Assembly: GCA_030448005.1 (NCBI GenBank)
Contig: JAUJNT010000001.1
Span: forward strand, 369,626 to 414,394
DNA from: Thermoleophilaceae bacterium
GTDB taxonomy: Bacteria; Actinomycetota; Thermoleophilia; Solirubrobacterales; Thermoleophilaceae
Direction of reading: 5' to 3'
DNA length: 44,769 bases
The position numbers were made by a program, and so were the translations under genes. Within the stretch, counting starts at the first letter, position 1. Each line of letters opens with the position of its first letter. The notes beneath the pieces were generated by a model. That model made no database searches. It was given only the letters and a program-made list of their open reading frames with translations, and was not told the DNA's origin. Positions 26,558 to 35,574 of this stretch are shown in pieces.

Positions 26558-27232
26558 CTAGAGCTCCTCTTCCAGGCGGAGGGTGGCAAGCGTCGCCCTG
26601 ATGTGACCGTGCACCTCTTCGGGCGGCCTGCAGCCGTCGAACCGGCGCACCAGGCTCTGCTTGAGGTAGTGGTCGATCACGGGGCGAGTCTGATCGTGGA
26701 AGACCCGCAGCCGGTGGCGCACGGTCTCCTCCTTGTCGTCCTCCCGCTGCACGAGGACGGAGCCGTCCTGGTCACAGAAGCCGGGGTTCTTGGGAGGGTC
26801 GAGCTCCACGTGGTAGACGTGGCCGTTCTTCTCGCACATCCGCCTACCGGACAGCCGGCGGATGACCTCCTCGTCTGGCACCTCGATGGAGAGCGCGGCG
26901 GTTAGCCGCCTCCCGAGCGACTCAAGCGCGGCGCCGAGCACCTCGGCCTGCTTTACCGTGCGGGGGAAGCCGTCCAGGACGAAGCCGTCCCGGGCATCCG
27001 CACCGTCCACCCGCTCGACGATCACCCGGCCGATCAGGTCGTCGGGCACGAGGTCGCCCCTGTCCATGTACTCCTTGGCCTCGCGACCGAGCGGAGTTCC
27101 CTCCTTGACCGCCGCGCGCAGGATGTCGCCCGTGGCGTAATAGGGCAGCTCGAAGTCGGCCCGCAGCCGCTCCGCCTGCGTGCCCTTGCCCGCGCCCGGC
27201 GGGCCGAGCAGGATGAGATTGAGCTCGCTCAC
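26558..27232 (-). CDS. adk: Adenylate kinase
   Basis: A 224-residue adenylate kinase (ATP + AMP to 2 ADP). The P-loop is LLGPPGAGKGTQAERL, the AMP-binding part is YATGDILRAAV, and FVLDGFPRTVKQAE and GRRMCEKNGHVYHVE cover the LID. The LID zinc site looks partly degenerate: the usual C-x2-C...C-x2-C/D reads C-x2-N...C-x2-D. The GTG at 27232 (VSELNLILLG) is preferred; the longer frame upstream runs into the inverted-repeat element and has no family similarity. The ribosome site is weak (CAGG). Confidence 0.95.
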   Translation of the reverse strand: MSELNLILLGPPGAGKGTQAERLRADFELPYYATGDILRAAVKEGTPLGREAKEYMDRGDLVPDDLIGRVIVERVDGADARDGFVLDGFPRTVKQAEVLGAALESLGRRLTAALSIEVPDEEVIRRLSGRRMCEKNGHVYHVELDPPKNPGFCDQDGSVLVQREDDKEETVRHRLRVFHDQTRPVIDHYLKQSLVRRFDGCRPPEEVHGHIRATLATLRLEEEL

Positions 27233-27274
27233 GACCTGGGCAAGGCTATCGCCCCGGCACAGCACAATTGAGTC

Positions 27275-27641
27275 ACACGGGCTCGGCATCCTGCCTCGCC
27301 TTCGACTGGAGAGCCTTTTTCGCCGTTCCAGCGACGAGTCCCGGACGATCGCTACGCGATCTGTACCGGGACCGTTGCCCACCCGGGACGGGTGTCAACC
27401 CGGGACCGGTATCCGACCCCCGGGACCTGCGGTAGCTCCGGAGTGGTGCCCACGGCGGTTCGTCCGGACGCTCGCCCCGTGTGGGCTTTCAAGGGTTCGT
27501 TACAGGACGCCCGGGCCCGGGTGATTTCCAACCGTCCTGCTGGCGTCCCGGGAGGATCGCGAAGCTATCCGACCGGGACTCGCCGCAGGAACGGCGAAAG
27601 AGATTCTCTGTCGAAGGCGAGGCAGGATGCCGAGCCCGTGT
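27275..27641 (-). repeat. 367-bp element with ~88-bp inverted repeats between secY and adk
   Basis: The outer 32 bases are perfectly complementary (27275-27306 with 27610-27641). Pairing then continues with about 80% match to roughly 27362/27552. The 190-bp interior contains several CCGGGACC-like repeats and small palindromes. It fills most of the 440-base secY-adk gap, which has no plausible gene. In the mRNA it would fold into a very long hairpin. It could be a MITE-like insertion or a structured intercistronic RNA. Confidence 0.85.
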
Positions 27642-27672: not shown

Positions 27673-28941
27673 CTACTTGAGAAACCCCTCATAGTTGCGC
27701 ATCATGAGCTGCGCCTCGAGCTGCTTCATCGTGTCGAGCGCCACGCCGACCACGATCAGGATCGACGTGCCGCCGAAGAAGAAGTTGGCGCTCGTCTGGT
27801 TGATGAGGATCGTGGGGAGCGCCGCGACGCCGGCAAGATAGAGAGCGCCGGGGAAGGTCAGCCGGGCGAGGATGCGGTCGAGGTATTCGGCGGTGGGCCT
27901 TCCGGGTCTCACCCCGGGTATGAACCCGGCGTGTTTCTTCAGGTTGTCCGCCTGCTCGACCGGGTTGAAGGTGACCGCAGTGTAGAAGTAGGTGAAGAGG
28001 ATGATGAAGATCGACTCCCCGACGATGTAGGCCCACCCGTTGGGGTTGAAGAATGCGGAGAAGTCGCGCGCCCAGCTTGCCTGTGAAAGCTCGCCGACCG
28101 TCGGGGGGAAGGCCATGAGCGAGGCGGCGAAGATCACGGGGATCACCCCCGCCATGTTCACGCGCAGAGGCAGGTAGGTGGAGCCGCCGCCCGACATCTT
28201 GCGGCCAACGACCCGCTTCGCATACTGCACGGGTATCCGCCGCTGGCCCTCCTGCATGAACACGATGAACACGATCACCGCGAGCCCGATGAACGGCATC
28301 ATCACCTTGAAGACCTGATCCGGGCTCTGCCACCACTGGGTGACGCCATTGGGAAGGCCGGACACGATGCTGGCGAAGATCATCAGCGAGATGCCGTTGC
28401 CGATCCCGCGCTGGGTGATGAGCTCGCCGAACCACATGAGCAGCACGCAACCCGCCGTGAGCGTGGTCACGATCACGAAGACGCGTCCGAACGTGAAGTT
28501 GTCCACCACTTCGTTGCCGCCGGTCGAGAAGGTGCGGAAGAGGAAGACGTAGCCGACCGACTGGCCGAACGCCAGGCCGACGGTGAGGTAGCGGGTGTAC
28601 TGCGTGATCTTCTGCTGGCCCACCTCGCCCTCCTTGCGGAGCTTCTCGAGCTGGGGCACCACCACCGTCATCAGCTGCAGGATGATCGAGGCGGTGATGT
28701 AGGGCATGATGCCGAGCGCGAAGATCGCAAAGCGCTGCAGGCTCCCACCGGAGAAGAGGTTGAGGAAGCCGAGCACGTTGGAGCCCGTGAAGTTCTCCGC
28801 GATGCTCTCGACCGCGTCGACATTGATGCCCGGCGCCGGTATATAGGCGCCCACGCGGTAGAGCAGCAGCATCGCGGCGGTGAACGCCAGCTTCTTCCGG
28901 ATCTCAGGTACCCGAAAGGAGTTGAGGAAGGTCTGGAGCAT
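27673..28941 (-). CDS. secY: Protein translocase subunit SecY
   Basis: A 422-residue SecY, the channel of the general secretion pathway with ten membrane spans. Family blocks include FRVPEIRKKLAFTAAMLLLY at TM1, FLNLFSGGSLQRFAIFALGI, ITQRGIGNGISLMIFASI, and the C-terminal TFPGALYLAGVAALPTI and FFFGGTSILIVVGVALDTMK. The cytoplasmic loop has RRIPVQYAKRVVGRKMSGG. The ATG at 28941 matches the usual N-terminus. It follows rplO by 10 bases, as in nearly all bacteria. Downstream lies the large inverted-repeat element. Confidence 0.97.
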   Translation of the reverse strand: MLQTFLNSFRVPEIRKKLAFTAAMLLLYRVGAYIPAPGINVDAVESIAENFTGSNVLGFLNLFSGGSLQRFAIFALGIMPYITASIILQLMTVVVPQLEKLRKEGEVGQQKITQYTRYLTVGLAFGQSVGYVFLFRTFSTGGNEVVDNFTFGRVFVIVTTLTAGCVLLMWFGELITQRGIGNGISLMIFASIVSGLPNGVTQWWQSPDQVFKVMMPFIGLAVIVFIVFMQEGQRRIPVQYAKRVVGRKMSGGGSTYLPLRVNMAGVIPVIFAASLMAFPPTVGELSQASWARDFSAFFNPNGWAYIVGESIFIILFTYFYTAVTFNPVEQADNLKKHAGFIPGVRPGRPTAEYLDRILARLTFPGALYLAGVAALPTILINQTSANFFFGGTSILIVVGVALDTMKQLEAQLMMRNYEGFLK

Positions 28942-28951
28942 CGTTGCCTGC

Positions 28952-29443
28952 TTACGAGTCGAGCACGCGGACGCTGCCCCCGGCCGCCTCGATCCGCTCC
29001 CGCGCCGTGGCCGAGAAGGCATGGGCGTGCACGGTGAGCGCCTTCGTGAGCTCTCCCTCGCCCAGCACCTTGACCGGTACGCCTGGCCGAGTGGCGAGCC
29101 CCTTGGCCTTGAGCGCGTCGGGGGTGACCTCCGCGCCCTTGTCGAAGCGACCGTCGAGGTCCTTCAGGTTCACGGGCTGCGTGTGGGTGCGGAACTTCTC
29201 GAAGGGCATCGACTTCTTCATGTGCGGGCCGCGCAGCTTGCGCATCCGCATCTGGATCGGGTTCTGCCCGCCCTCGAACCCGGCCCTGTCCTTGGCTCCG
29301 GCGCGTGAGCCGGCGCCCTTCTGGCCCCGCCCCGAGGTCTTGCCGAACCCCGACCCCTCGCCGCGGCCGACGCGCTTGCGGCGGTGGGTGGAGCCCTTGG
29401 CGGGCTTCAAATTGTGCAGGCCGATCACGCGCTCCTCAGCCAT
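28952..29443 (-). CDS. rplO: 50S ribosomal protein L15
   Basis: A 163-residue L15, slightly longer than the usual 145-150. The glycine-rich N-terminus RVGRGEGSGFGKTSGRGQKG and the basic HMKKSMPFEKFR are typical, and the globular C-terminus ends GGSVRVLDS. The start overlaps the end of rpmD by eight bases. Confidence 0.97.
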   Translation of the reverse strand: MAEERVIGLHNLKPAKGSTHRRKRVGRGEGSGFGKTSGRGQKGAGSRAGAKDRAGFEGGQNPIQMRMRKLRGPHMKKSMPFEKFRTHTQPVNLKDLDGRFDKGAEVTPDALKAKGLATRPGVPVKVLGEGELTKALTVHAHAFSATARERIEAAGGSVRVLDS

Positions 29444-32956: not shown

Positions 32957-33039
32957 GAAGGATTTGGCATGGATGCCGAATGCTTCGCGATCGGGGAAGG
33001 ATTTGGCATGGATGCCGAATGCTTCGCGATCGTTTCCAT
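32953..33039 (-). CDS. Repeat-encoded coupling peptide between rplN and rplX
   Basis: An open frame of 28 codons whose ATG overlaps the rplN stop (TGATG) and whose TGA overlaps the rplX start (ATGA). After [15 protein letters not shown] it repeats the 13-residue unit [13 protein letters not shown] in register, because the DNA repeat period is 39 bp, exactly 13 codons. rplX lacks a ribosome site, so translating this frame would deliver ribosomes to rplX. Whether the peptide accumulates is unknown. Confidence 0.5.
32957..33034 (-). repeat. Palindromic element, locus C (two 39-bp tandem units)
   Basis: Units start at 32957 and 32996; each reads GAAGGATTTGGCA, loop, TGCCGAATGCTTC, with a wobble and one mismatch in the stem, then CGCGATCG. 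The array fills the rplN-rplX gap and abuts the rplX start codon. Confidence 0.92.
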
Positions 33040-34616: not shown

Positions 34617-35470
34617 CAGCCTGTGCCCCCTTGTGGGGTGCGACCCCTCCCCCCGCCACGCGAGCCGCCGGGCGCACCGCCACGTCCACCCGGGGCACCG
34701 CCACGTCCGCCGGGGCCGCCCGAACCCGCGCCGCGACGCCCGCCCGGGCCGCCCGAGCCGCCCTGACGGCCGCCCGGCCCGCCGCCCCGCCCGGCGCTGG
34801 CGTGCTGCGGCGCCTCGAGCTCGGTGAGGTCCTGGGCAAAGCCCTTCGGCATGATCTCGCCCTTGTTGATCCAGACCTTCACCCCGATACGACCGAAGGT
34901 GGTCTTCGCCTCGAAGAAGCCGTAGTCGATATCGGCCCGGATCGTGTGCAGCGGCACCCTCCCGTCCGAGTAGCCCTCGGTACGCGCCATCTCGGCGCCG
35001 CCGAGCCGGCCAGAGACCTGCACCCGCACGCCCTTCGCTCCTGACCGCATGGCGGAGGTGAGCGAGCGCTTCATCGCCCTCCGGAACGCAACCCGGTTCT
35101 GGAGCTGCTCGGCGATCGACTGCGCCACGAGCTTGGCGTCGAGCTCGGGCCGCTTGATTTCGAGGATGTTCACCTTCACGGCCTTGCCGGTCATCTTGTG
35201 GAGCTCCTTGCGCAGAGCGTCCACCTCGCTGCCGGACTTGCCGATCACAATGCCGGGCCTTGCTGTGTGGATGTTGACCTCAACCTCGCTCTTGTTCTTG
35301 CGGATCGTGATGTCCGAAAGGCCGGCGTGCGCGAGCTTGTTCTCGATGTGCTCCCGGACGCGGATGTCCTCCAGGAGGTAGTCGGAGAACTCCTTCTCGG
35401 AGAACCACGTGGACTTCCAGTCGTGGATGTAGCCGACCCGCATCGACTCGGGATGGACCTTCTGACCCAT
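34616..35470 (-). CDS. rpsC: 30S ribosomal protein S3 with a glycine/arginine-rich tail
   Basis: A 284-residue S3, part of the mRNA entry helicase. It begins [20 protein letters not shown], has the KH domain ([20 protein letters not shown]) and the C-terminal domain ([40 protein letters not shown]). About 55 residues beyond the usual end are Gly/Arg/Pro-rich ([16 protein letters not shown]). The ATG at 35470 follows GGAGGG at good spacing. The first 23 bases of the gene occur again 104 bp upstream, next to the rplV stop, with a palindromic element between; the upstream copy is likely the original start. Confidence 0.97.
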
Positions 35471-35574
35471 TACGCAGCCCTCCGAGAGCAATGCGAAGGA
35501 TTCGGCATCCCTGCCGAATCCTCGAAGCATTCGGCATCCCTGCCGAATCCTTCGGGATGGACCTTCTGACCCAT
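35448..35574 (-). repeat. Palindromic element, locus D, inside a 23-bp duplication of the rpsC start
   Basis: Two perfect 23-bp direct repeats (35448-35470 and 35552-35574), each equal to the first bases of rpsC, flank two palindrome units: 35492-35523 region, GAAGGATTCGGCA..TGCCGAATCC, and 35522-35554, GAAGCATTCGGCA..TGCCGAATCCTTC. The loops are TCCC instead of the TGGA seen at other loci. Confidence 0.92.
35470..35574 (-). CDS. Leader peptide from the duplicated rpsC start
   Basis: The upstream copy of the rpsC start keeps its ATG and its own ribosome site (GGAGAAGGG). It reads [16 protein letters not shown], continues through the palindromic units (including SAGMPNPS) and stops after 34 codons with TAATG overlapping the rpsC ATG. 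It therefore forms a leader frame translationally coupled to rpsC. It may be an accident of the duplication, but the exact overlap is notable. Confidence 0.5.

Follow-up and report, generated by a model that had tools for sequence, protein, structure and literature searches.

A 367-bp inverted repeat between secY and adk in a Thermoleophilaceae genome is most likely (probability about 0.82) a heterodimer, with its tips outward, of a non-autonomous REP- or MITE-like repeat whose ~95-bp unit has three hairpins; two separate insertions would have formed it, and it would act, if at all, most likely as a passive barrier at an mRNA 3' end. We found that the repeat unit is multi-copy and intergenic, that both arms of the feature are full-length members of two subfamilies, and that the closest congener for which data exist has only a short gap, with no unit, at the corresponding site. 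What looked like an odd hairpin thus resolves into a repeat family that can be defined, in a lineage of which little has been cultured. The window analyzed, a 44,769-nt stretch of DNA, sits on a 1.05-Mb contig of the 3.23-Mb source genome (G000; order Solirubrobacterales), that of a soil bacterium.

The inverted pair and its site

The preliminary description of this DNA reported an inverted repeat at 27275-27641 with perfect 32-bp tips, and exact-tip comparison bore this out. Positions 27275 and 27641 are the exact outer limits of two inverted arms, pairing ends abruptly outside them, and the complementary tips (ACACGGGCTCGGCATCCTGCCTCGCCTTCGAC) run inward from both positions for 32 bp without a mismatch. 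Past the tips the complementarity is imperfect and reaches ~95 bp in repeat searches and alignments (arm against arm BLAST, E = 3e-23). Folding, proposed earlier as a check, was far beyond chance when set against dinucleotide shuffles: one strand reached -250.3 kcal/mol (z = -13.4) and the other -255 kcal/mol (z = -14.2), each ~85 kcal/mol lower than the shuffles.

Repeat search, the exact tips, and unit copies elsewhere together delimit the whole pair as two opposed units and a spacer. The left unit (27277-27372, plus strand) belongs to the subfamily of the copy at the citrate synthase gene (gltA) with 93% identity, and the right unit (27545-27639, minus strand, sense relative to secY) to that of the copy at the inositol-1-phosphate synthase gene (ino1) with 94% identity; alignment and a covariance-model search are the evidence for the two units. 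Within the left unit, alignment and folding place H1, the near-invariant core (GGGCtcGGCAtccTGCCtcGCCt), at 27279-27301 and H3 (GTCCCGGacGATCGCtacGCGATCtgtaCCGGGAC) at 27338-27372, and a degenerate H2 (CGCCGTTCCAGCGACG) folds at 27320-27337. The hairpins of the right unit, located by folding on the minus strand, occupy 27615-27637 (H1), 27580-27597 (H2), and 27545-27579 (H3). The CCGGGAC-rich spacer (27373-27544) measures 172 bp and not the ~190 bp first estimated; its description as gene-free stands, as we found no convincing gene in it. A whole-genome search returned no second copy of the spacer sequence, and the idea that it is a decayed third unit was rejected because its similarity to the unit is no higher than that of shuffles. 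As had been described, no target duplication was found at the flanks of the pair, where the matches are merely 4 bp long and due to chance. The secY-adk interval contained no intrinsic terminators of the T-run (U-tract) type.

The two arms are 81% identical to each other, and each is nearer to its outside copy than to its partner, which therefore indicates two subfamilies and not a local duplication. In a quartet comparison with the gltA and ino1 copies, nine columns joined left with gltA and right with ino1, none joined the two arms, and two supported the third grouping (9:0:2); the nine are not all independent because several are neighboring columns of two small indels. The quartet and identity pattern thus excludes, in practice, both an inverted duplication in place and later homogenization. 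An origin of the pair by local inverted duplication would explain the perfect tips but is barely credible with no column joining the arms against nine that join each with an outside copy. The first 28 bases are near-invariant across copies and, judged from sequence, the 32-bp perfect tips are the near-invariant core of the family and no product of selection on the hairpin of the pair. The view of the feature as one 367-bp element did not survive either, since the unit is a single arm, with solo arms at four other places and two subfamilies. A related possibility is one MITE whose terminal inverted repeats are ~95 bp long and whose interior is 172 bp, the other copies being solo ends that deletion or recombination left behind; this would fit the inverted arms, the gene-free interior, and the intergenic placement. 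It is nevertheless improbable, because the interior is found nowhere else, the arms differ by 19% and group with different solo copies, and a second repeat-rich genome, G220, carries ~21 solo units with a window-like pair at 0 of 20 inspected.

The pair lies between secY (27673-29022, minus strand), whose stop codon is 31 nt before the right tip, and adk (26558-27232, minus strand), which has a GTG start at 27232. The gap between them is 440 bp in G000 and 34 bp in G004, the nearest congener with data (adk 86% identical). Among relatives' loci with both genes found, it ranges from -4 (an overlap) to 1118 bp, and no unit was found there. This orthologous-site comparison, made for the secY-adk locus, does not yield a clean empty site because the non-element flanks in G000 total 73 bp, whereas the whole gap in the relative is 34 bp.

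Between the element and adk we identified a putative -10-like TANNNT motif (TAGCCT; 27243-27248, minus strand) by motif conservation. TANNNT beginning 12-20 nt 5' of the adk start was present at 20 of 32 adk loci (shuffles: mean 1.6, maximum 7), and windows further upstream showed no enrichment. Based on this pattern, adk very probably has its own promoter 3' of the element, which would place the insert between transcription units and not in an operon dependent on read-through. The hairpin had been described as lying in an essential operon, an interpretation that gives way to the conserved -10 motif retained downstream and to the range of gap lengths in relatives. The position of the motif also suggests that adk mRNA may be leaderless, or have a very short leader, in this order.

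Copies of the unit in G000 and other genomes

A whole-genome search of G000 found six copies of the unit at five places, the five loci on which the evidence from this genome rests, with two of the copies at secY/adk. Search E-values of the solo copies were 1e-15 to 1e-38. The core CGGCATCCTGCCTCGCCTTCG occurred six times at up to one mismatch, compared to 0 for a reversed-pattern control; a genome search of this kind for the tip had been called for earlier, and with six copies at five places the alternative of decayed single-copy sequence falls. The solo copies are found 3' of ino1, 3' of gltA, in the gap between a PhoU-like gene and ppx (gppA), and in the gap between rapZ and the GAPDH gene (gap). 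All six copies are intergenic and adjoin stop codons, at distances of 0, 7, ~14, and ~19 nt for the solo copies and 31 nt for secY. Visual inspection of the remaining G000 copies showed no obvious target duplication.

Unit size across copies is 86-97 bp, typically ~95 bp, and the unit folds as three hairpins: H1 (GGGCtcGGCAtccTGCCtcGCCt), H2 (CGCCGttccGGCGGCG), and H3 (GTCCCGG..GATCGCnnnGCGATC..CCGGGAC). Half of H2 is gone from the phoU copy, and two of the nine H1 pairs (TC/TC) are unpaired in G000. Folding of single units beats shuffles (z from -2.6 to -4.2). G000 units are without terminal inverted repeats apart from a possible stem at the phoU copy, the one copy whose outer stem exceeds shuffles.

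Across 232 genomes of the order, with up to 18 candidates scored per genome, the covariance model found at least 18 full-length 94-position matches in G220, which belongs to another family than G000, one divergent copy in G131, and no match beyond these three, so that several copies are present in 2 of the 232. A 26-base core pattern had 21 copies in G220 and revealed no further repeat-rich genome in the order or among 399 class-sampled genomes. Single core matches in G195, G216, G224, and G355 were not unit-like and were rejected as units. A DNA search of 100 relatives gave short partial matches and nothing more, and searches of plasmids, phages, and IMG/VR gave no match.

The G220 unit has the sequence ACGGGATCGACATCCATGTCGATCCTTCGAGAGAAGATCGCTTCGCCGTTCCGGCGGCGAGTCCCGGGCAGATCGCTACGCGATCC(A/G)CCCGGGAC and bears a ~17-nt outer (terminal) inverted repeat (aggccgtatctcagtag / ctaccgagatacgtcct). 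H2 and the start of H3 have the same sequence in G220 and G000, and H1 differs. The preliminary description had pointed to covariation as a further check. H1 keeps its pairing through two double-sided changes between the genomes (A-T to C-G and A-T to G-C), which are few in number. The G220 outer stem shows no compensatory coupling within copies (permutation p = 0.41), so common descent accounts for its presence in them. Of 20 G220 units, at least 11 have the stop codon of a predicted neighbor no more than 25 nt away, in either orientation, by crude gene calls based on codon-position GC. No target duplication was obvious by eye at the G220 copies. Two G220 units (L244 and L246) are damaged, one being without H1 and one without H3 between GTCCCGG and GGGAC, a clean loss.

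Spread, function, and relation to known repeats

We propose that the units would spread between sites as non-autonomous elements, and that two separate insertions in opposite orientation would have entered the space that separates the secY stop codon from the adk promoter, a permissive spot. The palindromic DNA may be copied by a trans-acting enzyme that works on the hairpins, with no recognizable Y1/RAYT transposase involved. Because the copies are complementary, a secY read-through transcript can fold as one giant hairpin or as two three-hairpin units. The likeliest effect would be passive, with the structure serving as an mRNA 3'-end barrier by which the secY message is protected or terminated, adk having a separate promoter for its transcription. 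Stop-codon placement makes a role at mRNA 3' ends plausible, and there are hints that the structure matters at the level of RNA or single-stranded DNA. The best reading is that the pair is tolerated at secY/adk as a twice-inserted non-autonomous palindromic repeat.

REPs are described as forming inverted heterodimers whose two units can fold singly or join in one large stem-loop (PMC3733652). Like RAYT-associated REP/BIME elements, the unit is extragenic, dispersed, and palindromic and occurs as an inverted heterodimer, and an RNA role has been proposed for REPs as is suggested for the unit. However, REPs are 20-40 bp with one hairpin and number in the hundreds, whereas the unit spans ~95 bp, forms three hairpins, is present in six copies in G000, and has no GTAG head there. 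Four of the six G000 copies end in ...GGGACG (CGTC on the opposite strand), where GTC belongs to the stem of H3; the CGTC-tagged REP families that have been described instead combine AT-led stems of 8-9 bp with tails of CCA. The transposase search, which covered the Y1 domain PF01797, gave 0 matches in G000 and positives in 29 of the 232 order genomes, with G000, G220, G131, and the congeners not among them. As the repeat-rich genomes G000 and G220 show no such transposase, the family is not a REP of the RAYT type. A classical RAYT-mobilized REP/BIME would account for extragenic palindromes and for a heterodimer resembling known REP dimers, but in view of the missing transposase and GTAG head it is highly improbable.

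MITEs of the Correia/NEMIS and RUP types are short, non-autonomous, intergenic repeats. The unit is like them in these respects, and in G220 it is bounded by terminal inverted repeats of ~17 nt, but G000 units, the possible phoU stem aside, are without such repeats, and neither a target duplication nor, in the PF01797 search, a parent IS came to light. The initial suggestion of a larger relative of the palindromes, a MITE, or a structured RNA can be narrowed to this extent: the sequence is repeated DNA, a classical MITE with terminal inverted repeats and target duplications is not shown in G000, and a structured role is suggested. The window had no Rfam match at the gathering threshold, and the unit loci gave chance-level matches alone at E<=1. 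Since the unit departs from RAYT-associated REPs in two defining features (the transposase and a short tagged palindrome), no target duplication was seen, and the unit is not in Rfam, we place it among bacterial interspersed palindromic repeats in the broad sense. We did not find a description of such repeats in Solirubrobacterales in the open-access literature, and the ~95-bp family is previously undescribed.

A selected structured RNA or mRNA 3'-end signal, such as a bidirectional terminator or stabilizer whose copies are kept for neighboring genes, is a possible alternative that we regard as unlikely overall. It draws on the stop-codon proximity in both genomes, the folding of single units, and an H2/H3 core that has the same sequence in two families, in contrast to H1, whose pairs have changed on both sides. 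Against it stand the extreme patchiness across the order, the orthologous secY-adk site without a unit, mixed orientation toward the neighboring gene, and an uncoupled outer stem within G220 copies. More speculatively, and with somewhat less confidence still, an undescribed structured repeat family of three to four hairpins, in which a CATCC loop and the H2-H3 core are conserved, might spread among distant Solirubrobacterales without RAYT and settle at stop codons as a two-way 3'-end signal, its outer stem and H1 being swapped or rebuilt per lineage. Under the twice-inserted repeat reading, the family exists in G000 and G220 without the enzyme usually credited with REP spread, which prompts one to ask by what other means palindromic DNA is copied from one stop codon to another. 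The reading carries a warning as well, as a long, perfectly tipped intercistronic hairpin can come from two repeat copies landing face to face.

Short palindromes and other hairpin families

The tips had been noted to resemble short palindromes at other junctions, and the likeness is real: both the palindromes and unit H1 have a TCGGCATCC(N)TGCC hairpin and CCTTCG. The short palindromes (GATGCGAAGGATTCGGCATCCNTGCCAAATCCTTC) form a separate genus-restricted, multi-copy family of ~35 bp with one hairpin and, like the unit, are frequently paired and as a rule intergenic. Exact matches numbered 17 in G000, 12 in G002, 6 in G003, and 2 in G004, so that four of the five genomes searched in this genus have them; of these five, G000 is the sole carrier of the 95-bp unit. 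G100, of another genus, has a different repeated hairpin (GCTCGGGCTTGCGGCCCGCTCGGCATCCTGCCTCGCCT...GGGCCGCGCCCGAGTCATCCGGCTG; L263-L265) that embeds the same H1-like core; 22-nt tip matches in this genome belong to that hairpin family and were rejected as units.

Short palindromes of the form TTCGGCATCCNTGCC occur in G000 as tandem pairs 29-78 bp apart, for example at window positions 32966-33017 (minus strand) and 35503-35544 (plus strand), with five more. The variable loop base is equal within the pair in 7 of 7 and differs between pairs (chance about 8e-5), and in the pair at C2:143920/143959 stem bases also match crosswise between units. At 35450-35573 of the window, a palindrome pair upstream of rpsC is bounded by the direct repeat GGGATGGACCTTCTGACCCAT, of which an automatic scan reported 14 bp. 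This repeat is the rpsC start (MGQKVHP, minus strand) and has the look of a target, or of a gene start, that was duplicated.

Three in-frame short palindromes lie inside a 652-aa typA/bipA gene of G000 (C1:619521-619613; minus-strand ORF L066:870-2828). They encode a ~38-residue insert between residues 430 and 431 of BipA structure 8ewh, which are adjacent there, and the arrangement is similar to that of in-frame palindromic elements in Rickettsia.
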